This document shows positions 28,658-50,898 of a DNA stretch of 64,000 nt, piece after piece. The notes under the pieces were generated by a model that searched no databases, was not told where the DNA came from, and worked only from the letters and a program-made list of their open reading frames with translations. The position numbers and the translations under genes are program-made. Each line of letters begins with the position of its first letter. Position 1 is the first letter of the stretch. Source of the stretch: Chromobacterium sp. ATCC 53434 (GTDB lineage Bacteria > Pseudomonadota > Gammaproteobacteria > Burkholderiales > Chromobacteriaceae); NCBI RefSeq assembly GCF_002848345.1, contig NZ_CP025429.1:2914001-2978000 (forward strand), given 5' to 3'.

Positions 28658-28773
28658 GATGACTCTCCGTTTCAAATGAAGGCCGCGGCCGGCCACCGCT
28701 GACCGCGCGCAAACCATTGTCGGGCGACACGGCCTCGTCGCTATAACGCTGTTTGGACGGAAAATAGTGAATA

Positions 28774-29583: not shown

Positions 29584-29604
29584 AACGCGCGGCCCGGCAA
29601 GAAA

Positions 29605-29627
29605 AAAGCCCGGCATGGCCGGGCTTT
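29605..29627. terminator. Bidirectional intrinsic terminator
   Basis: AAAGCCCGGC, loop ATG, GCCGGGCTTT. The plus strand serves the AraC gene; on the minus strand the run extends to TTTTTT and serves the desulfidase gene, whose stop is 22 bases away. Confidence 0.85.
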
Positions 29628-29649
29628 CCGTATCGTCGACGGACCGCGC

Positions 29650-30942
29650 TCAGCGCTTGTCCATCATGATCTGCAGGATCTGGGTGTCGGTCTGCGCCAT
29701 GCCCTGGGTGGCCAGCTTGCCCAGATTGGCGATGGACACGTCGACATCATGGGCGACGATGCCCTCGTTGCCGGTGACGCGGGTGCCGTCCAGCGCCATC
29801 AGCACCGCCTTGTAGCCGGAGCCGGCCGATGTCGACACCTTCATCGCGCAGCTGTTGGACGCGCCGTCGCAGATCATGCCGGCCAGGTCGCCTATCATGC
29901 TGGAGATCGCCATGCTGACCGCCGGGTAGCCGCCGTTCAACAGCTGCGCCATGCCGGCCGCCGCGCCCATCGACGCGGTGGTGACGGCGCACAGCGCCGA
30001 CAGCTTCGGCAAACGGGTATGGATGTATACGGCGATCAGGTGCGACAGCGCCAGCGCGCGGATCAGCGTTTCCCGGTCCGCCTTGACGTGCTCGGCCACC
30101 GCCACCACCGGCATCGTCGCGGCGATGCCCTGGTTGCCGGAGCCGGAATTGCTCATCGCCGGCAGCGTGGCGCCGCCCATCCGCGCGTCGGACGCCGCGG
30201 TGGTGCGGGTCAGGATATTGGACAGCAGGCCTTCGGACAGCAGGCCGGCCTCGATCTGCCGCTGCAGCGTCGCGCCGATGTGCAGGCCGTACTTGCCGCT
30301 CATGCCCTCGTCGGCCAGCGCGCTGTTCAGCACCGCCGCCTCGTGGATGAAGGCGATGCTGTCCAGCGGCGCGCGCATCGCGAACTCGTAGACGTCGCGC
30401 GCGGTGGCGTCGCCCAGCTCATAGCTTTCCAGCGGCTTGGCGTCGGCGGCCTCGCGCTTCAGCTTCACCTCGCCGTTGCGCTCTATCCTGATCACATTGG
30501 TGTGGGCATCGGCGATGGCGACGCGCGCGCACTCGTCGCCATGCCAGACACAGGCCTCGGCGTACAGGATGTTGGGCACGGCGGCCACGCCCAGCTTGAC
30601 CTTGCCGTCGGCCAGCATCTGCTTGCCGGCGGCGACCTGCTCGACGGTCAGATTCTTCAGCACTTCCAGCCGGGCGTCCGGGTCGCCGCCCAGCGCGCCG
30701 ACGGCGGCCGCGATCGGCAGGCCGACGGTGCCGGTGCCCGGCACGGTCACGCCCATGCCGTTCTTCATCAGGTTGGCCGACACCAGCGCGTCGATGCGCT
30801 CCGGCGTCTTGCCCAGCTCGCGCGTCGCCAGCGCCGCCGCCAACGCCAGCGAGATCGGCTCGGTACAGCCCAGCGCCGGCACCACTTCCTGTTTCAGAGC
30901 CTTGACGAACTCCGGCCACAAGCTAACTTCACGTTCAGACAT
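29650..30942 (-). CDS. cyuA: L-cysteine desulfidase / serine-dehydratase-like (CyuA, YhaM family)
   Basis: 430 residues, the usual length. [13 protein letters not shown] at about 22-34 and [11 protein letters not shown] near the end give the Fe-S cluster cysteines. N-S-G-S-G-N-Q-G is the family signature. The enzyme breaks L-cysteine to pyruvate, sulfide and ammonia. ATG at 30942 follows GGAG. Bounded downstream by a strong terminator; the upstream 120 bases are AT-rich promoter DNA. Confidence 0.85.
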
Positions 30943-31062
30943 GCTCACTCCGCCCACACATAACAAATGAATATAAGCAAATAACTTTTATACACTTTAC
31001 CACCATCCGACCGCCGCGCGCTTAAAAAACAGGCAACCGAGTCGCGATAAGGACAGTATCGA

Positions 31063-32274
31063 TCACAAACGACTCTTCCACCGCAGGCGCGCGCTCAACA
31101 GCAGCGCCGCCGCCGCGAACAGCGCGCCGCCATGGAAGGTGGCGGCCGCCCCCCAGCGCTGCCACAAGGCGCCGGCGGCCACGCTGGCCAGCAAGGCGGC
31201 CGCGCCGCAGATCAAATTGAACAGGCCGAAGGCCGAACCGCTCAGTCCCGGCGGCGCGCGCTCGGCCACCCAGGCCGAAAGCAAGCCCTGGCTGCATCCC
31301 AGATGCAGGCCCCACAACAGCGCCCCGACCAGCAACAGCGGCGCGCCGCGCGCCCAGCCCAGCGCCAGATCGGCCGCGATCAACAAGAGCAGCGAGCACT
31401 GCAGCAGGCTCGCTCGGCTGACGCGGTCGGACAGGCGGCCGAGCGGATAGGCGCTCAGCGCGTAGCTGGCCGACATCGCCGCCATCGTCAGCGGCGCCCA
31501 GGCCGGCGACGGCCCGAGCTGCGCGCCGCGCAGCACCAGGAAGGCCTCGCTGAAGCGCGCCAGCGTGAACAGCCCGCCCAGCGCGGCCACAGCCCAGAAG
31601 CCGGCGGAGAATCGGCAAAGAATGGCCCGGTTGAACAAGGACGGGCGCGGCGCCTCCCGCGCCGGCGCGGCCGGCTCCCGCACCCACAGCCAGATCGCCG
31701 CCACCGCCAGCAGCGCCGGCGGCACCGACCACCACAACGCGCCGCGGATGTCGTCGCGGTAGACCAGCATCAGTCCCATGGCCAGCAGCGGCCCGAGCAC
31801 CGCGCCGACCGTGTCCATGCTCTGGCGCAGGCCGAAGGCGGCGCCGCGGATCTCGGCCGGCGTAATGTCGGCGATCAGGGCGTCGCGCGGCGCGCCGCGC
31901 ACGCCCTTGCCGACGCGATCGACAAAGCGCGCCAGCAAGACGGTGGAGACGGAATGCGCGAGCGGAAACAGCGGCTTGGACGCGGCGGCCAGGCCATAGC
32001 CCAGCAACAGCAGCGGCTTGCGCCGGCCCAGCCAGTCGCTGAGCGGGCCGGAAAACACCTTGCAGATCAGCGCGGTGGCCTCGGCAACGCCTTCGATCAG
32101 GCCGATCACCAGCGCCGGCGCGCCCAGCGTGCCGGCGAGAAACAGCGGCAACAGGCTGTGGGCCAGTTCGGACGAGACGTCCATCAGCAGGCTGACGACG
32201 CCGAGCGCCCAGACGCCGCGCGGCATCGCCGGGCGGCCGGGGGAAGAGGACGGCGGTGCGGACGGTGGCGGCAT
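31063..32274 (-). CDS. MFS transporter
   Basis: 403 residues with about 12 membrane segments. G-P-L-S-D-W-L-G-R-R-K-P is the MFS motif A, and L-A-R-F-V-D-R-V-G-K-G-V-R-G-A-P-R-D-A-L is shared with transporters annotated as multidrug or sugar-phosphate-like exporters. Substrate not evident. ATG at 32274 follows GGGAG at 6-base spacing. Confidence 0.85.
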   Translation of the reverse strand: MPPPSAPPSSSPGRPAMPRGVWALGVVSLLMDVSSELAHSLLPLFLAGTLGAPALVIGLIEGVAEATALICKVFSGPLSDWLGRRKPLLLLGYGLAAASKPLFPLAHSVSTVLLARFVDRVGKGVRGAPRDALIADITPAEIRGAAFGLRQSMDTVGAVLGPLLAMGLMLVYRDDIRGALWWSVPPALLAVAAIWLWVREPAAPAREAPRPSLFNRAILCRFSAGFWAVAALGGLFTLARFSEAFLVLRGAQLGPSPAWAPLTMAAMSASYALSAYPLGRLSDRVSRASLLQCSLLLLIAADLALGWARGAPLLLVGALLWGLHLGCSQGLLSAWVAERAPPGLSGSAFGLFNLICGAAALLASVAAGALWQRWGAAATFHGGALFAAAALLLSARLRWKSRL

Positions 32275-32318
32275 CAGGACTCCCGGCAAGGCGAGACGCC
32301 GGCCGGGAGCCCGAAAGC

Positions 32319-32921
32319 TCAGTGCCTGATCAGCCCGGCGGCGATGGGTTTGGCCAGCAGGCGGCGGTACAGCGATTCCAGGCCGGCGGTCAACGCCGTC
32401 CCCTGCCGCGCCCACAACGGCGACAGGCTAGCGTACCAGAAGACGGACACCAGCAAGGCGCCCAGCATGTCCAGCGGGAAATGCACGCCGAGAAACACCC
32501 GGGACCAGGCGACGGCCAGGCCGGCGATCGCCAGCAGCCAGCCCCAGCCGCGCGCCGGGCTGAAACACCAGCACAGCGCCATCACCGCGAAGATGGTGCC
32601 ATGGTTGCTGGGGAAGGACGGCGTCGCGTCGTGCAGCAGGAAGGTATGGCCCAGCGGCATCGCGAACGGGCGCGGATGCGGCCAGGCGAGACCGATCAGC
32701 CAGTTGCCCAGCAAGGCGACGCCGGTCAGCAGCGCCGACTTCAGCACGGTATCGCGCAGGGCCGGCCGGCCCCACAGCCATAGCGAGGCCAGCAGCAGCG
32801 GCAACAGCATCAGCACATCCTTGGCGATGAAGGTGGCCAGCTTGATGGAGAACGGGGAGGTTTCGGGCGTGGCATTGATCAGCAGGAACAGCGTTTGATT
32901 CAGGGATTCGAGTGCGTGCAT
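32319..32921 (-). CDS. PAP2-family phosphatase (BcrC/undecaprenyl-diphosphatase type)
   Basis: 200 residues with several membrane segments. The three phosphatase motifs are visible: P-H-P-R-P-F near residue 76, P-S-F-P-S-N-H-G-T near 100 and S-R-V-F-L-G-V-H-F-P-L-D near 147. The family dephosphorylates undecaprenyl diphosphate or lipid phosphates. It lies 44 bases upstream of the MFS gene on the same strand. The start at 32921 has no strong ribosome binding site. Confidence 0.82.
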   Translation of the reverse strand: MHALESLNQTLFLLINATPETSPFSIKLATFIAKDVLMLLPLLLASLWLWGRPALRDTVLKSALLTGVALLGNWLIGLAWPHPRPFAMPLGHTFLLHDATPSFPSNHGTIFAVMALCWCFSPARGWGWLLAIAGLAVAWSRVFLGVHFPLDMLGALLVSVFWYASLSPLWARQGTALTAGLESLYRRLLAKPIAAGLIRH

Positions 32922-33107
32922 CGTCGTGGCGTCTGGCGCCGGCCGCGGCCGGCAAAATCCGGAAGTCGAAACTGGCAATCTTAGGACGATTTGCCCTCCG
33001 CTGGCTGCCCTTTCGCAAAAAAATACCGTAGGCATGCCCGGCCGGGCGGCGGCGCTTACAAGCGCCAGGCCCTTATTACACCTGATATAAAGGACAGCCA
33101 TAGAGAT

Positions 33108-33137
33108 TTGCCTGTCATTAATCGCCCTTCCTATGCT
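33108..33137 (+). promoter_or_regulatory. Candidate sigma-70 promoter for the VioB-like/ebo operon
   Basis: TTGCCT (33108-33113), 18-base spacer, TATGCT (33132-33137), 51 bases upstream of the first start codon. It lies in the 267-base gap divergent from the PAP2 gene. No stronger promoter was seen. Confidence 0.4.
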
Positions 33138-33188
33138 GGCTAAGGCCCCTCCCGCAATGAATGCCACACGCCCTCCGGAGAGACAGGC

Positions 33189-35231
33189 ATGAGCTATCTC
33201 GACACGCCCCGCATCAACTTCACCGGCGTCTTCCAGGCCGACCCCTCCACCGTCAACAACGACGTCCGCTATTACGACAACGCCGCCTTCCGCCCCGAAT
33301 ACCAACGCCAGCGCTACCCCGGCAACGGCCCCGAGGGCGCCGAAGGCTACTGGAATCCGGAAGGCACCGGCATCTTCCGCTTCATCGAATGCAAGATCAC
33401 CGGCGGCCAACTCGGCGACCAGATACTGGACTCGCCGAAACAAGACCCGGTCATAGGCCTGAGGCTGGAAAACGCCGACCGGCGCCCGCCGGGCAAGATC
33501 GTCGACCTCGATCCGCAGATGCAGTACGTGTCGCAGCTGTGGGGCGTGCAGCTGCGGCTGGCCGCCCCTGGCCATAGCGCGCTGTTCTGCGGCGACTTGC
33601 TGCCGGTGGCGCTGATGAATCTGTGGCAGCGACAAATCAATGCGCAGACTGCGGAGCAGCCGATGGCCGCCAACTATCAGTCGATACTGCACAACGTCGA
33701 CTGGCACGGCGGCATAGACTCGCCGCTGCTCGACGCCTTGCGCCAGGCTACCGCCGAGGGCCTGCTGGCCGTCAATTTCAATCTGTACGGCTACACCCGC
33801 AACAACCAGAGCAACCGCTTCACGATGGGCCTGGTCAGCGGCAGCATAGCTCCCTACCACGTCCGCGAGCCCAAGCACTTCGTCATGGGCCGCCACCTGA
33901 CGACGCCGCTGCAGCCGACAGGCCCCAACGGCGCGCCCTTCCCCACCCAGCCGCTCGGCGGCGTCTACGGCTTCCAGTGCCTGAACCGGCCGAAGCAGCA
34001 GACGCTGTACGCCGACTTCGGCCTGGCGCTGCCCATCGTCGACTCCACCGGCGAACTGCACAATATCGGCACGCTGACGCTGGCCCTACTGAAGGACAGC
34101 ACCGATCTGATACCGACCAGCGTCGATGTCGAGCAGTTCGCCGCACTGGGTACCGTCGACTATCAGCAGCGCGGCTGGTACGCCAGCACGGCCGGCATCC
34201 AGGGCTTTAACTACGCCGTCGGCGACGCCGAGCTGCCGGCCGCCGGCGACAGCCCGGAACAACTGCAACGCAAGCTGAAGACGCGCGAGCACAAGGACTT
34301 CGTCGCCACCCATCTGGAACAGCGGCCGCTGCTGCTGCTGGGACCGCAGAAGATAGACGGCAGCTACCCGGTGCTGAGCTACGAGGCCGCCGACGGCCGC
34401 TACGTCCGCGCCGACGGCCATGTGTTCCGGCTGAACCCGGACAAGCCGCAGCCGGTGGACTTCTACGCCAGCCACTTCGGCCTGCCGCTGTCGACCCGGC
34501 TCTACGCCTGGCAGCTGCCGCCCGGCAATCCCAACAGCAATCCGATGGGCGGCACCGGCATGGGCGACAATGCGCTGACGCCGCCGGTGCCGACGCCCGA
34601 GGTCGGCTTCCCAGAAACCAGCCTGGGCCTGCCGCCCTGTCTGGACACCAACGCCGACGGCAAGGGAACGCTGGCCGTCGCCGCCCATCCGCCGCTGGGC
34701 GACGCGCCGCGCGGCTATATCGACGGCCAGCTGTACGCGCTGAGCTATGGCTTCCAGCCGCCACCGGACACCCGCGCCGGCCGAATGGCCACCGCGCCCG
34801 GCGGCCCCTACTGCGAATACTGGAACTTCGTCAGCCTGCTGGCCTTCAACCGGGTCGCCGTTCCGCTGCAACCGACCTGGGAACGCGACATCCAGCCGAT
34901 CCTGAAGCAGTACGGCAATCTGTATCCGATCATGAGCCGCCACCTGGTCGATCTGGGCGACTACGCCTCGGTCAGCGCGCACCGCCGCGCGCTGCGACTG
35001 GCCTTTTCCTTGCCGCCCAGCGATCCGAACTACATGCCGGTATCGCGCGACCTGTCCGACGCCAAGCGCGAAATGCTGCTGGAGTGGCTGGACGCGCTGC
35101 CGCCGGACAATCAGCCGCAGGCCCAGCCGGCGGAACCGGAAATCATCGAGATCGAACTCAGCCCGGACGAGGCGCTGCGCAAGAAGCCCGCCCGCGTCGC
35201 CAAACCGTCGCGCCAGCAAACGATCAAGTAA
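33189..35231 (+). CDS. VioB N-terminal-domain homologue, stand-alone
   Basis: 680 residues. It begins MSYLDTPRINFTGVFQADPS, like VioB's M-S-I-L-D-F-P-R-I-H-F-R-G. Near residues 613-640, N-Y-M-P-V-S-R-D-L-S-D-A-K-R-E-M-L-L-E-W-L matches VioB's Y-Y-M-P-S-T-R-E-L-S-A-P-K-A-R-L-F-L-K-Y-L, which in VioB lies just before the ferritin-like half. The protein ends with a basic, Pro-rich tail about 45 residues later. VioB dimerises indole-3-pyruvate imine; here the substrate is unknown. GGAGAGA precedes the ATG at 33189. It and the next gene together equal one VioB. No tryptophan oxidase (VioA) is nearby. Confidence 0.75.
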   Translation: MSYLDTPRINFTGVFQADPSTVNNDVRYYDNAAFRPEYQRQRYPGNGPEGAEGYWNPEGTGIFRFIECKITGGQLGDQILDSPKQDPVIGLRLENADRRPPGKIVDLDPQMQYVSQLWGVQLRLAAPGHSALFCGDLLPVALMNLWQRQINAQTAEQPMAANYQSILHNVDWHGGIDSPLLDALRQATAEGLLAVNFNLYGYTRNNQSNRFTMGLVSGSIAPYHVREPKHFVMGRHLTTPLQPTGPNGAPFPTQPLGGVYGFQCLNRPKQQTLYADFGLALPIVDSTGELHNIGTLTLALLKDSTDLIPTSVDVEQFAALGTVDYQQRGWYASTAGIQGFNYAVGDAELPAAGDSPEQLQRKLKTREHKDFVATHLEQRPLLLLGPQKIDGSYPVLSYEAADGRYVRADGHVFRLNPDKPQPVDFYASHFGLPLSTRLYAWQLPPGNPNSNPMGGTGMGDNALTPPVPTPEVGFPETSLGLPPCLDTNADGKGTLAVAAHPPLGDAPRGYIDGQLYALSYGFQPPPDTRAGRMATAPGGPYCEYWNFVSLLAFNRVAVPLQPTWERDIQPILKQYGNLYPIMSRHLVDLGDYASVSAHRRALRLAFSLPPSDPNYMPVSRDLSDAKREMLLEWLDALPPDNQPQAQPAEPEIIEIELSPDEALRKKPARVAKPSRQQTIK

Positions 35232-35240
35232 GGAGCCGCC

Positions 35241-36338
35241 ATGCTCAAGATCGATCCGAAATTCGTCCGCGAGCTGCTCGCGGCCACCACGCCGGAACAG
35301 CTGCATTTCTTCCTGCAGAAGGCGGTGGAACTGGAGCACAGCACCATCCCGCCGTATCTGACGGCACAACTGTCGCTGAAGCCGGGCCAGAACCGCGAAA
35401 TCGGCGCGCTGATACACGGCATCGTGATGGAGGAGATGCTGCACATGACCATCGCCGCCAACATCCTGATCGCCATCGGCGGCCATCCGCGCATCAACAC
35501 CCCGGACTTCATTCCGCGCTATCCCGGGCCGCTGCCGATGGGCATAGGCGGCGATCTGATCGTCGGCATAGAAGCGTTCAGCCTGGAGTTGACGCGCGAC
35601 GTCTTCATGGAGATAGAGGAGCCGGCCGATCCGGTGCCGATACACCAGCTCAAGCAGCTGTACGCCGCCAATCAGCCGGCGCCGACCTTCCACACCATCG
35701 GCGAGTTCTACGACAGCATCAAGCTTAAGCTGACCGAGCTGTCCGGCCAGATCCGCTTCGGCCACCGCGACAAGCAGGTGCTGCACTATTTCCCCGAGGC
35801 GGTGCTATTTCCCATCGTCGACCTGGACAGCGCCCTCGCCGCCATCGACGTCATCATCACCCAGGGCGAGGGCGTTCGCGGTTCGCCATACCAGGATCCC
35901 GACGCGCCGGAAAAGCTGCAGGACCTCGCCCACTACTACAAATTCGACTCCATCTACCACCAGCGCGAGATCACCCCCTGTCCGGACGGCGACGGCTTTT
36001 GTTTCGATGGCCGTCCGATACCGTTCGACCCCCAGGGGGTCTGGCCGATGCCGCCGACGCCCAAACCCGAGGACTATCCGCAAAACACCCAGGAGCGGAC
36101 GCTGATCGAGCGCTTCGCCTACAGCTACAGCAGCCTGCTGAACGCGCTGCACCGCGCCTTCAACGGCGAGCCGGCCCAGATGGACACCGCCATCGGCCTG
36201 ATGTTCGACCTGAAGGTGCTGGCCGCCAGCCTGATGGACCCGGCCATGCTGCTCGGCTACAAGGAGAGTCCGGCCAGGCGGCCGATAGGCCTGAGCTTCG
36301 TCTACCGCGATGTGCAGAACGGCATGAGCTACGACTGA
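35241..36338 (+). CDS. Ferritin-like protein, VioB C-terminal-half homologue
   Basis: 365 residues. V-E-L-E-H-S-T-I-P-P-Y-L (about 31-42) and I-V-M-E-E-M-L-H-M-T-I-A-A-N-I-L-I-A-I-G-G (about 62-82) supply the Glu/His metal ligands and align with VioB's V-D-L-E-L-S-V-M-L-Q-Y-L and I-A-H-E-E-M-I-H-Y-L-V-V-N-N-L-L-M-A-L-G. A second shared patch is Q-G-E-G followed by S-P-Y. This suggests a metal-dependent oxidative enzyme. It starts 9 bases after the preceding stop with AAGGAG overlapping it, so both are probably made in similar amounts and may form one complex. Function inferred from VioB. Confidence 0.78.
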   Translation: MLKIDPKFVRELLAATTPEQLHFFLQKAVELEHSTIPPYLTAQLSLKPGQNREIGALIHGIVMEEMLHMTIAANILIAIGGHPRINTPDFIPRYPGPLPMGIGGDLIVGIEAFSLELTRDVFMEIEEPADPVPIHQLKQLYAANQPAPTFHTIGEFYDSIKLKLTELSGQIRFGHRDKQVLHYFPEAVLFPIVDLDSALAAIDVIITQGEGVRGSPYQDPDAPEKLQDLAHYYKFDSIYHQREITPCPDGDGFCFDGRPIPFDPQGVWPMPPTPKPEDYPQNTQERTLIERFAYSYSSLLNALHRAFNGEPAQMDTAIGLMFDLKVLAASLMDPAMLLGYKESPARRPIGLSFVYRDVQNGMSYD

Positions 36339-36359
36339 CGCGCCCCCATGGAGACAGCG

Positions 36360-37559
36360 ATGTCCGAATCCGATCCGATGCCGCCTTTCGAAACCGTCAT
36401 GCAGCGCTTCAGCGTGTCTTTCGCGTATCCGGTGCTGTTCACCCGGGCGCTGCTGCAGGCGGACAACGCGACGCTGCGCCACGCCATCGCCCGCGACGAC
36501 GCCGGCGTCCGCCACCGCTTCGTCGCCGTGATAGACCAGGGCGTGGCCCAGCACAGGCCGGGCCTGGCCGCCCAGCTGGAACGCTACGCCGAACACCACG
36601 CCAACGCCCTGCTGCTGGCCGCCGCGCCGCGGCTGCTGCCGGGCGGCGAGGCGGTGAAGAACGATCCGGCGATGCTGGAGGCGCTGCAGCAATGGCTGCA
36701 CGAACAGCACATAGACCGGCATAGCGCCGTCGTCGTCATCGGCGGCGGCGCGCTGCTGGACATGGCCGGCTTCGCCGCCGCCACCGTCCATCGCGGCGTC
36801 CGCGTCGTCCGCGTGCCGACGACGGTGCTGGCGCAAAACGACTCCGGCGTCGGCGTCAAAACCGCCGTCAACGCCTTCGGCAGCAAGAACTTGCTCGGCA
36901 GCTTCGCCCCGCCGTACGCGGTGGTCAACGACTACGACTTCATCGCCACGCTGCCGACCCGCGCCCGCATCGCCGGCATGGCCGAAGCGGTCAAGGTGGC
37001 CGCGATACGCGACCTCGATTTCTTCTGCTGGCTGGAAGAACACGCCTCGCGGCTGGGCCGCGGCGACGACGAGGCCTGCCGCTACCTGATCCGGCGCTGC
37101 GCCGAACTGCATCTGCGCCACATCGGCACCGCCGGCGACCCGTTCGAGTTCGGCAGCGCCCGCCCGCTGGACTTCGGCCACTGGGCGGCGCACAAGCTGG
37201 AGGCGATGAGCGGCTACCAGCTCAGCCACGGCGAGGCGGTGGCGATAGGCATGGCGCTGGACACCTGCTACGCGGTGCTCAGCGGCCTCTTGCACGTCGA
37301 CGCCGCCAGCCGGCTGTGCCGGCTGCTGGAAAAACTGGGCTTCACGCTGTGGACCCCGCTGCTGGAATGGCGCGACGGCAGCGGCCGGCATCAGGTGCTG
37401 GCCGGCCTGGACGAATTCCGCGAACACCTGGGCGGCGAGCTGACCGTCACGCTGCTGCAGGCGCTGGGGCAAGGCGTCGAAGTCCACAAAATGGACCGGG
37501 CCATGCTGGAGGACAGCATAGGCTGGCTGCGCCACGGCATCCCCGAGGCCTGCTCGTGA
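36360..37559 (+). CDS. eboD: Sugar-phosphate-cyclase-like protein EboD (3-dehydroquinate synthase family)
   Basis: 399 residues. G-G-G-A-L-L-D-M-A-G-F-A-A is the NAD-binding loop; V-P-T-T-V-L-A-Q-N-D-S-G-V-G-V-K-T and G-M-A-E-A-V-K-V carry the catalytic Lys and metal-binding Glu of the family; D-F-G-H-W-A-A-H and S-H-G-E-A-V-A-I-G-M give the metal-binding His. Length and context fit EboD rather than AroB. The ATG at 36360 was chosen because GGAG sits 6 bases before it; 36348 has no site. First of six ebo genes; the stop overlaps eboE. Confidence 0.82.
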   Translation: MSESDPMPPFETVMQRFSVSFAYPVLFTRALLQADNATLRHAIARDDAGVRHRFVAVIDQGVAQHRPGLAAQLERYAEHHANALLLAAAPRLLPGGEAVKNDPAMLEALQQWLHEQHIDRHSAVVVIGGGALLDMAGFAAATVHRGVRVVRVPTTVLAQNDSGVGVKTAVNAFGSKNLLGSFAPPYAVVNDYDFIATLPTRARIAGMAEAVKVAAIRDLDFFCWLEEHASRLGRGDDEACRYLIRRCAELHLRHIGTAGDPFEFGSARPLDFGHWAAHKLEAMSGYQLSHGEAVAIGMALDTCYAVLSGLLHVDAASRLCRLLEKLGFTLWTPLLEWRDGSGRHQVLAGLDEFREHLGGELTVTLLQALGQGVEVHKMDRAMLEDSIGWLRHGIPEACS

Positions 37560-38764
37560 GGCTGGACGGCGGCGATGCCGCCCTCGGCCATCTATGCTAT
37601 TGCAGCAACATCCATCCGGGCGAAAGCTGGGACCAGACCCGGTCGGCGCTCGGGCGCTATCTGCCGGCGGTCAAGGCCAGGGTGTCGCCGGACGCGCCGT
37701 TCGGCGTCGGCCTGCGGCTGTCGGCGCTGGCCGCCCAGCAGCTGGAGCGGCAGGCCGATCTGCTGGCCGAGTTCCGCCAGTTCCTGACCCGCCATGGCCT
37801 GTATGTCTTCACCATCAACGGTTTTCCCTACGGCCGCTTCCACGGCGCCGGCGTCAAGCAGCAGGTCTATCAGCCGGACTGGCGCCGGACCGAGCGGCTG
37901 GAATACAGCAACCGGCTAGCCGTCCTGCTGGCCGGGCTGATGCCGCCCGAGCTGTCCTGGGGCAGCGTCAGCACCGTGCCCGGCGCCTTCGCCGCCGACG
38001 CCCGCGCCGACGCCGACTCGGCCCGGGCGATACTCGACAATCTGCTGCACCACGTCGCCTTTCTACAGCGGCTGCACCTGGAAAGCGGGCGCTGCATCCG
38101 CCTGGCGCTGGAGCCGGAACCGGCCTGCCTGCTGGAAACCAGCGCCGACGCCGTCGCCTTCTTCGAAGACCGGTTGCTGTCGCCGGTGGCGATGGAGCAG
38201 CTGGGACGGCTGTGCCGTTGCCCGCCGCGCCACGCCGAGACGCTGCTGCGCCGCCATCTGGGCCTGTGCCTGGACTGTTGCCACGCCGCGGTGGAATTCG
38301 AAGACCCCGACGACAGCCTGAACCGGCTGGAGGCCGCCGGCATAGACATCGTCAAACTGCAACTGAGCGCCGGCCTCAGGCTGCCGGCCGTCGGCCCGGA
38401 GCACCGCGCGCTGCTGCGGGACTTCGCCGAGGACAGCTATCTGCACCAGGTGGTGCAGCGCGGCGCCGGCGGCCTGCGCCGTTTCGACGATCTGCCGGCG
38501 GCGCTCGACTGCCTGGACGAGGCGGCCGGCGCCGAATGGCGCATCCATTTCCATGTGCCGCTGTGGGCCGGGCAACTGGGCGCGATGGCCGGCACCGGCG
38601 ATTTCGTCGCCGCCGTGCTGGCGCGGCATCGCAGCCGGCCGATCAGCGATCACCTGGAGGTGGAAACCTATAGCTGGAGCGTGCTGCCGGCGGCCTACCG
38701 CGAGGCCGAGCTCGCCGACGCCATCGCCCGCGAACTGGACTGGGTCAAGGAGCGACTACGATGA
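37556..38764 (+). CDS. eboE: EboE, TIM-barrel metabolite-traffic protein
   Basis: 402 residues from a GTG start overlapping the eboD stop (GTGA). It reads L-C-Y-C-S-N-I-H-P-G-E-S-W near residues 13-25, the hallmark start of EboE, and L-A-L-E-P-E-P, L-C-L-D-C-C-H-A and D-I-V-K-L-Q-L-S in a xylose-isomerase/endonuclease-IV-type TIM barrel with likely metal-binding Glu, Asp and His. The reaction is unknown. Longer upstream readings lie inside eboD in another frame. The stop overlaps eboC by 4 bases. Confidence 0.82.
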   Translation: MRLDGGDAALGHLCYCSNIHPGESWDQTRSALGRYLPAVKARVSPDAPFGVGLRLSALAAQQLERQADLLAEFRQFLTRHGLYVFTINGFPYGRFHGAGVKQQVYQPDWRRTERLEYSNRLAVLLAGLMPPELSWGSVSTVPGAFAADARADADSARAILDNLLHHVAFLQRLHLESGRCIRLALEPEPACLLETSADAVAFFEDRLLSPVAMEQLGRLCRCPPRHAETLLRRHLGLCLDCCHAAVEFEDPDDSLNRLEAAGIDIVKLQLSAGLRLPAVGPEHRALLRDFAEDSYLHQVVQRGAGGLRRFDDLPAALDCLDEAAGAEWRIHFHVPLWAGQLGAMAGTGDFVAAVLARHRSRPISDHLEVETYSWSVLPAAYREAELADAIARELDWVKERLR

Positions 38765-39609
38765 TGAACTGGCGCGCCGCGCTACAACTGGGACGGGTGT
38801 CCAATCTGCCGACGGTATGGAGCAATGTGGCCGCCGGCGCCGCGCTGTCCGGCCTGCCGCCCGGCCTGCCGGTGCTGGCCCGGCTGCTGCTGGCGCTGTC
38901 GCTGATCTATATCGCCGGCATGTTCCTCAACGACGCCCACGACCGCCGCGTCGACGCCATCGAACGGCCGGAGCGCCCCATCCCGTCCGGCCGCGCCGGC
39001 GTCGCCGAGGTCTTCGTCTGCGGCTACGCGATGCTGGCCGGCGGCGTGCTGCTGCTGGCCGGCCTCGGCGTCCCCGCGCTGCTGGCCGGCCTGCTGCTAG
39101 CCGGCTGCGTTGTCGGCTACGACCTGCACCACAAGCAGAACCGCTTCAGTCCGCTGATCATGGGCCTGTGCCGCGCCCTGGTCTACGTCACCTCGGCGCT
39201 GGCGGTCACCGGCGGCCGGCTGCCGCCGCCGGTCTGGCTGGGCGCGATGCTGCTGCTGGCCTATCTGGTCGGCCTCAGCTACGCCGCCAAGCACGAGAAC
39301 CAGGGCCGCATAGGCAAGCTGCTGCCGTTGTGCGGGCTGGCCGCGCCGCTGCTCTACCTGTTCACCCAGCCGCCGGGCTGGATCGCCCTGCTGTGCCTGG
39401 CGCTGTTCGCGCTATGGGTGGTCCGCTGCGTCTGGCTGGCCTTCCGCCGCCAGCCGGACATCCGCGCCGCCGTCGGCGGGCTGATCGCCGGCATCTCGCT
39501 GAACGACGCCTTCCTGATGGCGATGCACGGCCTCCCGCTGTGGGCGCTGGGCGGCGCGCTGGCCTTCGTGCTGACCCACCGCTTCCAGCAACGCGTCGCG
39601 GGGACCTGA
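38761..39609 (+). CDS. eboC: UbiA-family prenyltransferase EboC
   Basis: 282 residues, about nine membrane segments. N-D-A-H-D-R-R-V-D-A-I-E-R-P-E-R-P-I-P (about 60-78) is the first N-D-x-x-D-x-x-x-D prenyl-diphosphate/Mg motif; Y-D-L-H-H-K-Q-N-R near residue 120 is a conserved polar loop in UbiA proteins. It would transfer a prenyl or similar group at the membrane. AAGGAG lies 8 bases before ATG at 38761, and the start overlaps the eboE stop. Confidence 0.85.
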   Translation: MMNWRAALQLGRVSNLPTVWSNVAAGAALSGLPPGLPVLARLLLALSLIYIAGMFLNDAHDRRVDAIERPERPIPSGRAGVAEVFVCGYAMLAGGVLLLAGLGVPALLAGLLLAGCVVGYDLHHKQNRFSPLIMGLCRALVYVTSALAVTGGRLPPPVWLGAMLLLAYLVGLSYAAKHENQGRIGKLLPLCGLAAPLLYLFTQPPGWIALLCLALFALWVVRCVWLAFRRQPDIRAAVGGLIAGISLNDAFLMAMHGLPLWALGGALAFVLTHRFQQRVAGT

Positions 39610-39611
39610 AC

Positions 39612-40295
39612 ATGCTGGCCACCCTGTTGCAGGCCGAGCTCGACCAGGCCGCCCAAACCCACCCCGACGCCCAGGCCTGGCTGCGACAGCTGCCGGCCGC
39701 CGTCGCCCGGCCCGACGCCGAAGCGCTGCAGCGGCTCTACGCCGCCGCCGCCCGCAAGCTGAGACCGCTGCCGCCGCCGACGCCGGCGCTGCGGGACGCC
39801 CTTCGCGAAGCCGGCGCCGTCGCGCCGGCCGACTGGTCGCCCGGCGACATCGGCCGCCTGCTGCTCCTGCTGCTGGCGCGGCCGCCCGAAGGCGGCCCCC
39901 AGACGGAAACCCTGCCGTGGCGGCTGTTCCGCGGCGGCGACGCCGGCGAGCAGCAAAGCCTGCTGCGCGCCTTGCCGCTGTTGCCGCGGCCGGAGGCCTG
40001 GCTGGAATTGGCCGTCGACGCCTGCCGCAGCCACATCCAGGGCAATTTCGAGGCTATCGCCTGCGAAAACAGCTACCCGGCGCGCTTCTTTCCGGAGGCC
40101 AACTTCAACCAGCTGGTGCTGAAGGCGCTGTTCACCGGCGCCTCGCTGCTGCGCGTCGACGGCCTGCGGCGGCGGCTGACGCCCGAATTGCTTCGCATGG
40201 TCGCCGATATGGCCAGCGAACGGCGCGCCGCCGACCGCGCCGTTCCCGCCGACATCCAACTCGTCCTGAAAGGAAGCCGCTATGAAAATGTTTGA
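39612..40295 (+). CDS. eboA: EboA-family metabolite-traffic protein
   Basis: 227 residues, soluble and helical, with no signal peptide. H-I-Q-G-N-F-E-A-I-A-C-E-N-S-Y-P-A-R-F-F and F-N-Q-L-V-L-K-A-L-F-T-G-A are conserved in EboA as I recall the family. Biochemical role unknown. Starts 2 bases after eboC and overlaps eboB by 14 bases. Confidence 0.78.
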   Translation: MLATLLQAELDQAAQTHPDAQAWLRQLPAAVARPDAEALQRLYAAAARKLRPLPPPTPALRDALREAGAVAPADWSPGDIGRLLLLLLARPPEGGPQTETLPWRLFRGGDAGEQQSLLRALPLLPRPEAWLELAVDACRSHIQGNFEAIACENSYPARFFPEANFNQLVLKALFTGASLLRVDGLRRRLTPELLRMVADMASERRAADRAVPADIQLVLKGSRYENV

Positions 40296-41175
40296 CCCCC
40301 ATATCCACATGAGCTCGCGCACCACCGACGACTACCAGGCGATGCACCGCGAAGGGATTCGAGCCATCGTCGAGCCGGCCTTCTGGATGGGCCAGCCGCG
40401 CACCCACGTCGGCACCTTCGAGGACTACTTCCTGTCGCTGCTGGGCTGGGAGCGCTTTCGCGCCGGCCAGTTCGGCATCCGCCATTTCTGCACGCTGGGC
40501 CTTAACCCCAAGGAAACCAACAATCCGGTCGTCGCCGACGGCGTGATCGCGCTGCTGGACCGCTACCTGGACAAGGACGGCGTGGTGGCCGTCGGCGAAA
40601 TAGGCTTCGACGACGAGACCGCCGCCGAGGAGCGCTATTTCCAGCTGCAACTGGAGCTGGCGATCAAGCACGAGCTGCCGGTGCTGGTGCACACCCCGCA
40701 CCGCGACAAGAAGGCCGGCACGATACGCAGCCTGGCCCTGGTCCGCGACAGCGGCATAGACGAATGCATGGTGCTGATAGACCACAACACCGAGGAGACG
40801 CTGCCGCTGGTGCTGGACAGCGGCTGCTGGGCCGGCCATTCCATCTATCCGGACACCAAGATGAGCGAACCGAGGATGGTGGCGCTGGTGCAGCAGTACG
40901 GCAGCGAGCGCATCATCGTCAACAGCGCCGCCGACTGGGGCATCAGCGATCCGTTGAAAGTGCCCAAGACCGCCCGGGCCTTCCGCGAAGCCGGCATCGA
41001 CGAGCAGCAGATCGAGACCATAGTCTGGATCAACCCGATACGCTTCTTCGCCCAGAGCGGCAAGCTGGACATCGCCGAGGCCGAAACCGCGGTCGGCGTC
41101 GACCAGCGCCGGCAATGGCAGGGCAACTCGGTGCTGCGGGGCCAGCAGCCGCAAGTCGACGCGCTGGACGGCTGA
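40282..41175 (+). CDS. eboB: TatD-family metallohydrolase EboB
   Basis: 297 residues. F-D-P-H-I-H-M (about 4-10), V-G-E-I-G-F-D-D (Glu), V-L-V-H-T-P-H-R-D, L-I-D-H-N and S-A-A-D-W-G are the His/Glu/Asp metal ligands of a TatD-type TIM barrel, all present. Expected to be a metal-dependent hydrolase or phosphoesterase within the Ebo pathway. Overlaps the eboA 3' end and precedes eboF by 2 bases; AAAGGAAG lies upstream of the ATG. Confidence 0.83.
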   Translation: MKMFDPHIHMSSRTTDDYQAMHREGIRAIVEPAFWMGQPRTHVGTFEDYFLSLLGWERFRAGQFGIRHFCTLGLNPKETNNPVVADGVIALLDRYLDKDGVVAVGEIGFDDETAAEERYFQLQLELAIKHELPVLVHTPHRDKKAGTIRSLALVRDSGIDECMVLIDHNTEETLPLVLDSGCWAGHSIYPDTKMSEPRMVALVQQYGSERIIVNSAADWGISDPLKVPKTARAFREAGIDEQQIETIVWINPIRFFAQSGKLDIAEAETAVGVDQRRQWQGNSVLRGQQPQVDALDG

Positions 41176-41177
41176 GC

Positions 41178-42596
41178 ATGCCGCGCCTGCTGGTTCTGAA
41201 CGTCGTCGGCCTGACGCCCAGGCTGCTAAGGCACGCGCCGGCGCTGCGGCGACTGGCCGAACAAGGCTGCGCGCGGCCGCTGGCCGCGGTGACCCCGGCC
41301 CTGACCTGCCCGGCCCAGGCCACCTATCTGACCGGCCAGCCGCCGTCGCGCCACGGCTGCGTCGGCAACGGCTGGTATTCGCGCGAGCTGGCCGAGCCAT
41401 TGTTCTGGAAACAGAACAACGGCCTGATCGACGGCGAGAAGCTGTGGCACGAGGCGCGGCGCCGACACGCCGACTTCAGCTGCGCCCAGCTGTTCTGGTG
41501 GTACAACATGTACGCCGACGTCGAATGGAGCGTGACGCCGCGCCCGATCTACAAGGCCGACGGCCGCAAGATACCGGACTTCTACAGCGCGCCGGCCGAG
41601 CTGCACGCCGAACTGCGGCAAAAGCTCGGTGATTTTCCGCTGTTCCAGTTCTGGGGCCCGGCCAGCGGCATCGCCTCCAGCCGCTGGATAGCCGATTGCG
41701 CGCTGCACCTGTACCGCAGCCGCCAGCCTATGCTAAGCCTGGTCTATCTGCCCCACCTCGATTACTGCCTGCAAAAGTTCGGGCCCGACCATCCGTCCAT
41801 CGCCGCCGAAGTCGCGGCGGTCGACGCCCTGTGCGAGGAATTGATCGCCGAGGTCCGCGCCGACGGCGGCCGCGTGCTGGCGCTGTCCGAATACGGCGTC
41901 ACCGCCGTCAGCGGCGACGTGGCGATCAACCGGGCGCTGCGGCGCGCCGGGTTGTTGCGGGTGCGGCAGGAGCAGGGGGAGGACAAGCTGGACTGCGGCG
42001 CCTCGGACGCCTTCGCGCTGGCCGACCACCAAGTGGCCCACGTCTACGTCAGGCGGCCGGAGCGGGTGGCCGAGGTGAAGGCGCTGCTGGAGCGGCTGGA
42101 CGGCGTCGAGCTGGTGCTGGACCGGGACGGCAAGCGGCTGTACAGCCTCGACCATCCGCGCGCCGGCGAGCTGGTGGCGATCAGCCGGCCGGACCGCTGG
42201 TTCAGCTACTACTACTGGCTGGACGACGCGCAAGCGCCGGACTTCGCCCGCACCGTCGACATCCACCGCAAGCCGGGCTACGACCCGGTCGAGCTCTTTC
42301 TCGATCCGCGGCTGCCGCTGCCCAGGCTCAAGATCGCCTGGACGCTGCTTAAGCGCAAGCTCGGCCAACGCAGCCTGCTGGATGTGATACCGCTGGACGC
42401 CTCGCTGGTGAAAGGCTCGCACGGCCGGCCCACCGACGACGCGGACGCCGGGCCGCTGCTGATCAGTTCGGAGCCGGACAGCCTGATCGGCGACAGCGTG
42501 CCGGCCACCGCGGTGCGCGACGTCATTCTGGCCCACCTGCAAGCCAATCCGCTGTCCATGCGGCACGACAGCGTCACGGCCACCGTGGCCCGGTGA
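41178..42596 (+). CDS. eboF: EboF, nucleotide-pyrophosphatase/alkaline-phosphatase-superfamily protein
   Basis: 472 residues. P-A-L-T-C-P-A-Q-A-T-Y-L-T-G near residues 42-55 holds the nucleophile-type Thr, and S-R-H-G-C-V-G-N-G is typical of phosphodiesterase-type members. L-P-H-L-D-Y-C-L-Q-K-F-G-P-D-H resembles the D...H metal-binding patch. The usual S-D-H-G is S-E-Y-G here and the first metal Asp appears as N-V-V-G, so metal binding may differ. Last gene of the unit; a strong terminator follows 13 bases after the stop. Confidence 0.8.
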   Translation: MPRLLVLNVVGLTPRLLRHAPALRRLAEQGCARPLAAVTPALTCPAQATYLTGQPPSRHGCVGNGWYSRELAEPLFWKQNNGLIDGEKLWHEARRRHADFSCAQLFWWYNMYADVEWSVTPRPIYKADGRKIPDFYSAPAELHAELRQKLGDFPLFQFWGPASGIASSRWIADCALHLYRSRQPMLSLVYLPHLDYCLQKFGPDHPSIAAEVAAVDALCEELIAEVRADGGRVLALSEYGVTAVSGDVAINRALRRAGLLRVRQEQGEDKLDCGASDAFALADHQVAHVYVRRPERVAEVKALLERLDGVELVLDRDGKRLYSLDHPRAGELVAISRPDRWFSYYYWLDDAQAPDFARTVDIHRKPGYDPVELFLDPRLPLPRLKIAWTLLKRKLGQRSLLDVIPLDASLVKGSHGRPTDDADAGPLLISSEPDSLIGDSVPATAVRDVILAHLQANPLSMRHDSVTATVAR

Positions 42597-42609
42597 TCGG
42601 CTAAATGAA

Positions 42610-42639
42610 AAAAGCCCGCACATTTCTGTGCGGGCTTTT
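42610..42639. terminator. Bidirectional intrinsic terminator
   Basis: AAAAGCCCGCACA, loop TTTC, TGTGCGGGCTTTT. It ends the ebo transcript on the plus strand and, with a TTTTTT run on the minus strand, ends tRNA-Asn. Confidence 0.9.
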
Positions 42640-42646
42640 CGAATGC

Positions 42647-42722
42647 TGGCTCCCCGAGCAGGGCTCGAACCTGCGACCTGCGGATTAACAGTCCGTCGCT
42701 CTACCAACTGAGCTATCAGGGA
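42647..42722 (-). tRNA. tRNA-Asn (anticodon GTT)
   Basis: 76 bases on the minus strand beginning TCCCTGATAGCTCAG and ending GGGGAGCCA. The acceptor stem TCCCTGA/TCGGGGA, the D arm, the anticodon loop CTGTTAA and the T arm GTTCGAGCC are all regular, and CCA is encoded. Confidence 0.96.
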
Positions 42723-42783
42723 ACGTATAGAGAAAGCGATTTTAAGCTAGCTACAACCTTCTGTCAACACCTCCGGCAACGGA

Positions 42784-42800
42784 GAAGGCCGCCGGCCTTC
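42784..42800 (-). terminator. Hairpin just after rne, weak terminator candidate
   Basis: GAAGGCC, loop, GGCCTTC, 17 bases beyond the rne stop. There is no T-run, so it may be a stabilising 3' hairpin rather than a terminator; the tRNA gene follows on the same strand. Confidence 0.4.
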
Positions 42801-42816
42801 CCCGTTCCGAGCGCGA

Positions 42817-45795
42817 TCAGTTGTTGCGGGTCTCCACCTGGACCAGCGGCGCCGACTGCTGCGCGTCGGCGTCGGTCGCGCCGGCCACGTCGCGGCGGCG
42901 CGGACCTTGCGGCAGATCCGGCTCGGCCAAGGCCTCGGCTTGCGCCGGCTTGGTCGACACCATCACCAGACCGCCCAGATCCATCGGCTTGGCCTCGACC
43001 TGCGGGGCCGCGACCGGCTGCGCCGCCTTCGGCGCCACGACGGCTTCCGCCACCGGCAGCGCTTCGGCTTCGACTTGGGTCTCGGCTACCGGCTCGGCCT
43101 GCTCGACGACGACCGGAGCGACTTCCGCCACCTGGATCGTCGGCTCGGCTTCGACCGCTGCCTCTTGCTGCGGAGCCTCGGACTTCAACGCCTGCTCATC
43201 GGCCACCTCGACCGCCACCGGGGTCACCACCACCACCTCGGGTTCGGACTCCAGCACGACTACCGGGGCAACGGCCACCGGGGCTTCGACGACGGCTTCC
43301 ACCGGCGCGGCAAGCTCGGCTTCGACAACCGCTTCGGCAGTCGCCACCACCGGGGCCGGCGCGGCTTGCGCCTGCTCGGCGACCGGCGTTTCGGCCGGTT
43401 TGGCTTCGGCGGCGTCGGCCACCGCTTCGGCGGCCACGGCCGTCACGGCGATGGCGATGCCTGCGGTTTCGGCCAAGGAGGCGTCGCCAGTCTCGGCGGC
43501 GGCGCCGTCAAGCTGGGCTTCCGGCGTGTCGCGGCGACGGTCGCGGCGACGACGACGACGACGTTCGCTGCGCTCCTGCTCGGTCTGCTCGCCTTCGGCA
43601 TCCAGGTGCAGCTCTTCCTGCACCGGCTTCTCGACGGCCTCCGCCGGGGCGGCGGCCGGCGCCTGACGGCGACGCGGCTCCTGCTGCGGCTTGTCCTGCT
43701 TCTCGGCCTTCTCGCTCACGCGCTCCTCGCGCGGCGCCTGCTCGCGGACTTCCTTGGCTTCGCGCGGCTCGCGGCTCTCGCGTTCGCGGCGACGGTTGCC
43801 GCGCGGCTCGCGCGGCTGCTCGTTGCGCTCTTCGCGCTCGCGGCTCGGCGCCTCTTTGCGTTCGGTTCGCTCGCTTCGTTCGGCGCGTTCGCCGTCCTTG
43901 CGCTCGGCGCGGTCTTCAGCCTGGCGGCGCGGCGGCTTGCCGTCGTCCTGGCCCTGGCGGCGCTGTTCGTGCTCGCGGCGGGCCTGGCCGCCGGTGCGAC
44001 GCTCCTGCTGACGCCCGCGGTTACCGCGCTGCTCGTTGTTGCGGGCGGCCGCCGGCTTCTTGCGGGCTTCCGGCTCCGGCGCCTTCTCGGGCTCGGCGAA
44101 CAAGCCCTTGAACCAGGCCGTGATGCCTGCCAGCAGGCCAACGGACTCAACCGGCTTGGCGGCGGCTGCGGCCGGCGCGACGGTCGGCGCCGGCTGCTGC
44201 GGCGTGATGCCCTTGACGGCGGCTTCCTGGCGCTCGACCTTCGGCTTTTCCTGGCCGAAGTTGGTGATCACATCTTCTTCCTGCACTTCCACGCGGCTGT
44301 AGCTCGGCGCCTCGCCCAATTCGGCCAGGTCGTCGTGACGCACGCGCACGATCTTGTAATGCGGGGTTTCCAGATGGATGTTCGGGATCAGCACCACGTC
44401 GACGTCGAGGCGTTCCTCGATCGAATGGATCTCGGCGCGCTTCTCGTTCAACAGGAAGGTGGCCACGTCCACCGGCACCTGCGCGTGCACCGCGCCGGTG
44501 TTTTCCTTCATCGCCTCTTCCTGGATGATGCGCAGGATGTGCAGCGCCGACGATTCGGTGCCGCGGATGAAGCCGATGCCGTGGCAACGCGGACATGGCT
44601 CGTGGCTGGTCTCGCCCAAGGACGGCTGCAGACGCTGACGGGACAGCTCCAGCAGGCCGAAGCGGGACAGCTTGCCCATTTGCACGCGGGCGCGGTCATG
44701 CTTCAGAACGTCGCGCAGGCGGTTTTCCACGTCGCGCTGGTTCTTCGGGTTTTCCATGTCGATGAAGTCGATCACCACCAGGCCGCCCAGGTCGCGCAGG
44801 CGCAGCTGGCGGGCGATCTCTTCCGCCGCTTCCAGGTTGGTCTTGACCGCGGTTTCCTCGATGTCGGCGCCCTTGGTGGCGCGAGCCGAGTTCACGTCGA
44901 TGGAGACCAGCGCTTCGGTATGGTCGATCACGATGGCGCCGCCGGACGGCAGCTGCACGCTGCGCGAGAAGGCGGTTTCGATCTGGTGTTCGATCTGGAA
45001 GCGGGAGAACAGCGGCACATGATCCTTGTACACCTTCACACGCGACAGCATGTTCGGCATCACATGGCTCATGAACTGGCGGGCCTGATCGTGAATTTCA
45101 TCGGTATCGATCAGCACTTCGCCGATGTCCGGATGGAAATAGTCACGGATCGCGCGGATCACCAGGCTGCCTTCCTGCAGAATCAGGAACGGCGCGGACT
45201 GGGCACCGGCGGCGCCCTCGATGGCGCGCCACAGCTGCATCAGATAGCCAAGGTCCCACTGCAGCTCTTCCAGATTGCGGCCGATGCCGGCGGTGCGCGC
45301 GATCAGGCTCATGCCATGCGACACTTCCAGCTGCGACAGCAGATCCTTCAGCTCCTGTCGCTCTTCGCCCTCGATGCGGCGAGACACGCCGCCGCCGCGC
45401 GGATTGTTCGGCATCAGCACCAGATAACGGCCGGCCAGGCTGATGTAGGTGGTCAAGGCCGCGCCCTTGTTGCCGCGCTCGTCCTTCTCCACCTGCACCA
45501 CGACTTCCATGCCTTCGCGCAGCACGTCCTGAATACGCGGACGACCGCCCTCATAGCCCTGGAAATAGGAGCGGGACACTTCCTTGAACGGCAGGAAGCC
45601 GTGACGCTCGGTGCCGTAATCGACGAAGCAGGCTTCCAGCGAAGGCTCGATCCGGGTGATGATACCCTTGTAGATATTGCCTTTGCGCTGTTCCTTGCCT
45701 ACGGTCTCGATATCGAGATCGACGAGCTTCTGCCCGTCGACAATCGCGACGCGAAGCTCTTCGGCTTGCGTCGCATTGAACAACATACGTTTCAT
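42817..45795 (-). CDS. rne: Ribonuclease E
   Basis: 992 residues. [10 protein letters not shown], the S1 domain (about 37-120), the RNase H-like and DNase I-like catalytic region with V-S-I-D-V-N-S (metal Asp) and V-V-I-D-F-I-D-M (metal Asp), and the zinc link C-P-R-C-H-G (near 404) are all present. After about residue 510 the protein is disordered: an amphipathic stretch near 545-560 ([10 protein letters not shown]) likely binds the membrane, then an Arg/Glu-rich RNA-binding part (about 590-720) and a long Ala/Val/Glu/Pro-rich tail ending in Q-V-E-T-R-N-N. It is the core of the RNA degradosome. The plus-strand open frame across it is a shadow. Confidence 0.95.
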
Positions 45796-45975
45796 TTACA
45801 TTCCTTGCGCAGCACTCACGCAAGGATGCAGCCAGTATTTGACGGCCCAGTGACTATCGATGGGCGCTTTCCGAAAGAAGTGTCGATGTAAAGATCGAGA
45901 AAAACAGGTTTGATAACAAGCCGACTTCCTGATTTGGGTCACATGCGGTCCCGCAATTCTGTGCGCAAGCGGCGC

Positions 45976-46010
45976 ATCGGCGGTATCGCCGATCCTGCCC
46001 TCAGGGCAGG
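45976..46010 (-). promoter_or_regulatory. Two adjacent stem-loops in the rne leader
   Basis: The 527 bases between rne and rluC hold no credible gene. Within them, ATCGGCG/CGCCGAT with a GTAT loop (45976-45993) is followed with no gap by CCTGCCC/GGGCAGG with a 3-base loop (45994-46010). They lie 181-215 bases upstream of the rne start. In enterics rne is autoregulated through hairpins in a long leader; a similar role here is inferred. A stretch resembling an AT-rich promoter lies near 46105-46130. Confidence 0.45.
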
Positions 46011-46322
46011 ACAAACATTGACGGAACGACGGCATGCCGGGTCAAACTTCGCTGCAAAATCTCCTGACTGGCTTTGCATCAGGAAATGGAATACTCGTGA
46101 GTGCGTTATGCGTATAAATGCATTACCATCGCTACTTTTCGGTGAGCGAGTTAACCTTGGCTGCGGCTATGTCAGACGGCGTCGGGTCAGGGTCTCACCC
46201 TGCCGGCCACCTCGGATTTCCGCAGCAGCGTCACGCGATACGAGCCGTGACCTTGGCTTTCCGTTCAGAGCTGCCCGCGCAGGCGCTTGGCACCAGCAGA
46301 CAGCGCCATAAGTATAAGCAAT

Positions 46323-50859: not shown

Positions 50860-50898
50860 CACGCCTGCCTTAAAAGTAGAGCAGATTACCCCTACCTT

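Follow-up and report, generated by a model that had tools for sequence, protein, structure and literature searches.

Our analysis of a 64,000-nucleotide stretch (the window) of the 5.14 Mb, single-contig genome of Chromobacterium sp. ATCC 53434 revealed that two VioB-like genes, here called vbN and vbF, form one compact unit with a complete ebo cluster at positions 33189–42596. The pair directly adjoins ebo in 12/12 ebo-bearing Chromobacterium loci (the window and L023–L033), and the unit recurs beyond the genus. The initial annotation, made from the DNA letters alone, had proposed this unit and named as its counter-case that every relative should carry the pair without ebo; the constant adjacency in Chromobacterium shows otherwise. 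A linkage arising by accident in one species is rejected by these 12 loci, by the two ebo lineages among them and by the further occurrences elsewhere. Judging from sequence, we think it fairly probable that a two-subunit oxidative enzyme of the VioB superfamily makes or finishes a small molecule, which Ebo would then handle in its membrane role.

Gene unit and identity of the ebo genes

Eight plus-strand genes fill the unit in the order that had been annotated, vbN-vbF-eboD-E-C-A-B-F, and its ends were placed exactly: 33189 is the start of the vbN ATG and 42596 is the final base of eboF.

33189..35231, plus strand: vbN, 680 amino acids, homologous to VioB 1–581
35241..36338, plus strand: vbF, 365 amino acids, PF12902 ferritin-like, homologous to VioB 596–932
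36348..37559, plus strand: eboD, sugar-phosphate cyclase of the 3-dehydroquinate (DHQ) synthase superfamily (Pfam 3.3e-36), start possibly at 36360
37556..38764, plus strand: eboE, TIM-barrel "metabolite traffic protein EboE" (NF035939), GTG start
38761..39609, plus strand: eboC, UbiA-family membrane prenyltransferase (PF01040, 3.7e-19)
39612..40295, plus strand: eboA, EboA domain (NF035938)
40282..41175, plus strand: eboB, TatD-family metal-dependent hydrolase (PF01026, 3.5e-14)
41178..42596, plus strand: eboF (PF01663, 2.3e-56)

The intergenic gaps from vbN to eboF are 9, 9, −4, −4, +2, −14 and +2 bases. The second gap becomes 21 bases if eboD starts at 36360, a position preceded by GGAG (by eye), and the annotated "gaps of 2–21 bases or overlaps" is correct when this alternative start is counted. 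Because of this close spacing, we infer that the eight genes would form one transcript. All eight reading frames are open. In comparison with C. subtsugae, the substitution rates of vbN and vbF indicate purifying selection, as do those of the ebo genes (nonsynonymous, dN, and synonymous, dS, rates of 0.17 and 0.63 for vbN, ratio about 0.27; 0.17 and 0.59 for vbF, ratio about 0.28; dN 0.05–0.30 and dS 0.40–0.68 for the ebo genes).

The cluster is complete, as annotated, since Pfam, NCBIfam and spacing place all six genes eboA–F in it, present and adjacent. EboE scored 439.1 bits against the NF035939 cut-off of 250, and EboD belongs to the DHQ-synthase class (PRK06203.1, 559.5 bits; cut-off 333). 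The EboA domain was recognized by NF035938 (142.5 bits; cut-off 50), while the whole-EboA model NF035937 gave 113.3 bits, below its cut-off of 320. The EboC model NF035940 likewise gave 115.7 bits, below its cut-off of 250, and Pfam assigned EboC to the UbiA family.

Relation of the pair to VioB

Profile comparison aligned vbN with VioB 1–581 (hhalign probability 97.3, E 2e-11, 21% identity over 502 columns), most strongly at both ends, and vbF with VioB 596–932 (probability 97.8, E 9e-13). No similarity between vbN and vbF was found by profile comparison. Their alignments along VioB show that together they divide the VioB layout collinearly between two open reading frames with a 9-base gap, compared with the single fused VioB chain of approximately 1000 residues. 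The annotated term "split VioB" thus describes the architecture, in which the genes are collinear halves, but not the identity, as neither gene reaches the VioB cut-off: assignment to true VioB (TIGR04492) was rejected, with 18.9 bits for vbF and no score for vbN against a cut-off of 1250. RebD and StaD are further kin of VioB.

VbF matched PF12902 (Pfam, 7.4e-62), and its structural model (predicted local distance difference test, pLDDT, 88.4) matches 3hl1, which is ferritin-like. The residues E32, E65, H68, E126, E210 and H231 are conserved in 41/41 alignment rows, among them VioB; as the window and two genomes were entered twice, the number of distinct rows is 38. Given the ferritin-like fold, we infer that these six residues would bind two metals. 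VbN has no Pfam or NCBIfam family and consists mostly of strands, with no signal peptide seen by eye. Its AlphaFold2 model is strand-rich (pLDDT 81.4), and we claim no fold for it because a Foldseek search against the PDB gave query-normalised template modelling scores of only 0.09–0.14 among the 50 matches listed. The closest named relatives are from C. vaccinii for VbF (97% identity) and Chromobacterium sp. CV08 for VbN (94%), and VbF has 1762 relatives at E ≤ 0.001. When VioB of Chromobacterium was compared with the PDB, it matched leukaemia inhibitory factor, which was dismissed as chance.

Distribution in Chromobacteriaceae

EboE was found in 12/61 Chromobacteriaceae genomes and full-length vbN (at least 553 bits) in the same 12, so that no genome has only one of the two (Fisher 5.7e-13, which is not a true probability because the genomes are related). 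The ebo sets fall into two distant groups: the window and eight loci with EboB 82–93% identical to that of the window, and L031–L033, with EboB 52–54% identical to it. In a quick EboE tree, L031–L033 group with Undibacterium, apart from the other nine Chromobacterium loci. The vbF tree places ebo-linked vbF at several positions; it flags long branches and so serves only as a hint.

The window's own genome carries a second vbN-vbF pair, 31–37% identical, near 70 kb of C1 (L034:7997-11232, minus strand). Its neighbours are patatin-like and short-chain dehydrogenase/reductase-like genes by eye, and the vbF tree places it together with the ebo-linked pair of the violaceum type.

Distribution outside Chromobacteriaceae

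In a Burkholderiales sample, EboE was found in 20/399 genomes and PF12902 in 18/399; two genomes (G000 and G260) have both, adjacent in each case. The corresponding numbers in a Pseudomonadota sample were 17/398 for PF12902 and 3/398 for EboE, and only G000 has both. A scan of named genomes gave at least 582 EboE relatives, the best 80 of which were analysed, a choice that favours loci resembling the query EboE; many contigs were short. Among these 80, vbN-family and vbF-family genes were each present at 7 loci, or at 5/78 each without the two Chromobacterium loci. Both genes occur in L084 (Sulfitobacter), L110 (an alphaproteobacterial metagenome-assembled genome), L118 (Undibacterium) and L132 (Nitrospirillum). 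L090 (Telmatospirillum) has a weak vbN-type gene only, and L120 (Roseobacter) a vbF-type gene only, added to the count by hand on its PF12902 match; Pfam confirmed PF12902 in L118 and L120. The 5/78 loci with vbF beside ebo compare with 0.016 expected under a rough uniform model, based on PF12902 prevalence in two partly overlapping samples. In Undibacterium sp. TS12 (L118), a fused gene of 892 amino acids beside ebo contains both parts, a form seen only there among the ebo-linked loci examined.

For the EboE tree, 124 ebo loci were gathered and 120 used after four duplicates were dropped; some stretches were short. A VioB-like gene is present at 31/120 of these loci. Its distribution requires eight label changes on the tree, at least five of which are forced by well-supported branches. 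It is absent throughout a clade of 13 rows, mostly cyanobacteria and Bacteroidota.

Ebo loci of a probable Pseudomonas genus

The genus of genome G572 has EboE in 12/119 genomes. This genus is probably Pseudomonas, on the basis of two Pseudomonas 16S primer sites. Both sites were present in 9/12 of its ebo genomes (G572, G889 and G839 have neither). Of six genomes from other genera, none has both, and three, including G000, have the reverse site alone. Genes of the vbN family occur at 12/12 ebo loci of this genus, with two copies in 9/12.

Four stand-alone vbN-like proteins (two from L135 and one each from L132 and L090), compared with vbN as a set, gave an hhalign probability of 99.8 and an E of 3e-28; by sequence they appear as clear relatives of vbN. 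With an independent vbN profile, L090 scored 28.4 bits (first 25 residues), the extra L132 gene 35.5 bits and the two L135 genes 37.0 and 39.6 bits. Two secreted-type proteins, P1 and P2, also occur at these ebo loci, P2 at 12/12 and P1 at 9/12. All counts include the loci from which the profiles were built, which match by construction: L090, L132 and L135 for stand-alone vbN and for P2, and L023, L024, L027, L110 and L135 for P1. P1 is conserved, has no Pfam family and lies upstream of vbN in 5/5 haemolyticum-type Chromobacterium loci. P2 has approximately 400 residues, and the members read carry CxxCH close to the C terminus; a vbN-type gene is present at 15/15 P2 loci (3 named and 12 of the G572 genus). 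Sequence-profile searches of the PDB with P1 and P2 gave no match.

Most of these loci differ further in eboD: at 11/12, the reading frame of EboD also matches a VTT-domain query. Pfam confirmed the VTT-EboD fusion in 2/2 tested (L135 and L084). Against the undecaprenyl-phosphate transporter model UptA, the L084 fusion scored 31.2 bits (cut-off 250). From its sequence, the VTT domain may be a lipid-flipping step of ebo. Separate VTT-like genes were also seen near ebo in L085, L088, L092, L095, L101 and L120.

L027:4198-5259: P1
L110:4396-5448, minus strand: P1
L135:3766-4689, minus strand: P1
L139:6217-7515: P1
L132:2124-3338, minus strand: P2
L090:2116-3363: P2
L135:2454-3746, minus strand: P2
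L084:8129-10000: EboD with N-terminal VTT (DedA-type) membrane domain (Pfam)
L135:13498-15387, minus strand: EboD with N-terminal VTT (DedA-type) membrane domain (Pfam)

Features flanking the unit

33082..33097: candidate CviR-type quorum-sensing operator CTG-N10-CAG, 8/10 fixed bases of the CviR consensus
42613..42639 (approximate): terminator-like hairpin from RNA folding, with an A run before and a T run after

Folding of the 54-base stretch 42597–42650 gave −26.4 kcal/mol (z −5.7), and a tRNA-Asn gene lies beyond the hairpin on the opposite strand (42647–42722). Upstream of vbN, a PAP2 gene on the minus strand reads away from the unit. No sigma-70 site was found upstream of vbN by a simple consensus scan, which also missed the hairpin at 42613–42639.

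A CviR-like palindrome stands 99–107 bases before vbN in 4/4 vaccinii/subtsugae-type loci. At that distance it was found in 0/5 haemolyticum-type loci (before P1), two of which have one at −177, and in 0/3 violaceum-type loci (before vbN). The 64-kb window contains four equally good sites. The candidate operator might place the unit under quorum sensing, a weak suggestion because, of the three Chromobacterium types, two lack the site at that position.

Elsewhere in the window, 50812–59391 has lower G+C and encodes an AsnC regulator, two ATP-grasp proteins (one with an L-amino acid ligase C-terminal domain), a 2-hydroxyacid dehydrogenase, a major facilitator superfamily transporter and a 2-oxoglutarate-Fe dioxygenase. 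This region may be a small peptide-type biosynthetic cluster.

Proposed function and alternative explanations

We propose that VbN and VbF would together form a single two-subunit oxidative enzyme of the VioB superfamily, in which VbF would carry the ferritin-like metal site and VbN would be the strand-rich partner. The pair would make or oxidatively couple a small molecule in the cytoplasm. EboA–F would then build a carrier or modification by cyclitol-type and prenyl chemistry, with EboC in the membrane, and this carrier or modification would move the small molecule across the inner membrane, comparable to the scytonemin monomer in Nostoc. More speculatively still, the product might be associated with the cell surface and deter grazers like the EDB product; vbN-family genes likewise accompany ebo in the probable Pseudomonas genus. 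At the level of sequence, the proposal builds on the VioB homology, the conserved metal-type residues, the fused Undibacterium gene, the purifying selection and the linkage to ebo. Three further points lead us to favor a cargo-making pair with Ebo at the membrane. Every ebo deletion tested in Nostoc punctiforme is reported to accumulate scytonemin monomer confined to the cytoplasm, and ebo is viewed there as a translocation system for which a lipid carrier was proposed (PMC6282210). A relative of EboC farnesylates the aromatic 8-hydroxyquinoline-2-carboxylic acid in vitro (PMC9235831). The VTT-EboD fusions, finally, would fit a membrane-lipid step.

Several observations weigh against this proposal. 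In the Burkholderiales sample, PF12902 is present in 2/20 ebo genomes and 16/379 others (p 0.23, not significant), and 89/120 loci of the EboE tree have no VioB-like gene in the stretch examined, some of these stretches being short. At ebo loci of the G572 genus, vbF was found in the stretch at 0/12; G572 is also outside the PF12902 genomes of the Pseudomonadota sample, assuming an identical genome draw. The pair of L139 (G595) has P1 adjoining it and no ebo beside it, and on the same assumption G595 lies outside the 3/398 EboE genomes. Within Chromobacterium, further vbN copies lie elsewhere in 8/12 genomes (the window's genome and seven others), and the second pair L034 has no ebo nearby. 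Neither VioB nor VioA was found in the window's own genome, the best VioA match being 20.2 bits over 90 residues. No ebo-type product is listed in the main-text quorum-sensing tables of a C. subtsugae study (PMC12114271).

The isoprenoid-cyclitol product argued for by Yurchenko et al. in 2016 (PMC5133447) leads to a rather unlikely alternative, in which ebo itself makes a prenylated cyclitol-type metabolite, vbN-vbF serves as an oxidase that tailors this metabolite, and nothing is exported for the pair. EboD as a sugar-phosphate cyclase, EboC as a UbiA prenyltransferase and the constancy of ebo while flanking genes vary agree with such a pathway; however, the scytonemin monomer trapped in the Nostoc cytoplasm fits transport better than a separate product. 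We consider it improbable that the pair is an iron- or oxygen-handling stress protein, or an oxygenase of an unrelated substrate, brought beside ebo by an accident of gene transfer. PF12902-type proteins are indeed widespread without ebo. Of 19 PF12902 stretches without ebo that were examined, 17 show no vbN; one of the 19 is the second pair of the window's own genome, and the others come from 18 of the 32 genomes that have PF12902 and no ebo, with a single site taken from each. Nevertheless, the linkage, kept in both ebo lineages of Chromobacterium as well as in L048, L084, L110, L118 and L132, the fused form, and the lack of full-length vbN in every ebo-less genome of the 61 in the family argue against an accident. 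A second, diverged VioB of the violacein/indolocarbazole type, partnered with a host VioA, would share the architecture and the six site residues with the pair, but it is very improbable in view of the 18.9 bits against 1250, the genome in which neither VioA nor VioB was found, and the occurrence of true VioB over the cut-off about equally with ebo (6/12 Chromobacterium genomes) and without it (3/7).

The initial annotation had predicted a new exported aromatic metabolite. The word "aromatic" is unsupported, as VioA and VioB were not found in the whole genome and the sequence distance from VioB is too large for the pair to inherit its substrate. The pair could make an aromatic imine as VioB does, but only with the help of an oxidase encoded at another place in the genome. 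More broadly, and only as a tentative idea whose parts stand together, Ebo could be a general membrane-delivery module with cargo made by VioB-N-type proteins in several proteobacterial lineages; the product in Chromobacterium and the nematode repellent of Pseudomonas EDB could be members of a single unrecognised class of compounds delivered by ebo, with the missing lipid-flipping step marked by the VTT (DedA)-EboD fusions.

VioB and ebo are each already known. A limited literature search that left the original EDB paper outside it found no report of the two recurring together, of the fused form or of vbN-type genes next to ebo in a probable Pseudomonas genus, and no paper with both "ebo cluster" and "VioB" was among the matches listed. 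Yurchenko et al. declared the analysis of genes inserted into ebo operons beyond their scope (PMC5133447). Ebo genes span many phyla, and one function, in scytonemin synthesis, is worked out in the literature consulted (PMC6282210). A recurrent VioB-type partner is a candidate core enzyme and makes the question of the ebo cargo approachable by two mutants; the recurring pairing in distant bacteria hints at a common exported compound.

Comparison with known systems

The pair resembles VioB, an iminophenyl-pyruvate dimer synthase, in its collinear two-part architecture and its six E/E/H/E/E/H positions. Unlike VioB, it consists of two chains far under the VioB cut-off, is linked to ebo and lies in a unit without VioA, VioC, VioD or VioE. 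Caulobacter CC_0557 (3hl1, PF12902) shares the fold and ferritin-like residues of VbF, whereas no EboE was found in the Caulobacter control genome.

The EDB system of Pseudomonas fluorescens NZI7, known to us by its description (PMC6282210, PMC5736907), has like the window a full ebo cluster, together with further genes bearing signal peptides, according to Klicki et al. (PMC6282210). P1 and P2, the secreted-type proteins that would correspond to this trait, were not found in window positions 28001–48000. The loci of the G572 genus differ from the window, as they contain secreted-type P1/P2, show no vbF and mostly have EboD in frame with a VTT match; in their secreted-type proteins they resemble EDB as described, a suggestive match. 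The link to EDB drawn in the initial annotation becomes somewhat more plausible: vbN-family genes accompany ebo at all 12 loci of this probable Pseudomonas genus, and the NZI7 cluster itself was compared by description only. The scytonemin-associated cluster of Nostoc punctiforme has the same six ebo genes as the window (PMC6282210). All eight genes of the Chromobacterium unit have assignments other than ScyA, ScyB or ScyC. In contrast to cyanobacteria, the window has the order D-E-C-A-B-F and carries the VioB-like pair in place of ScyA–C.

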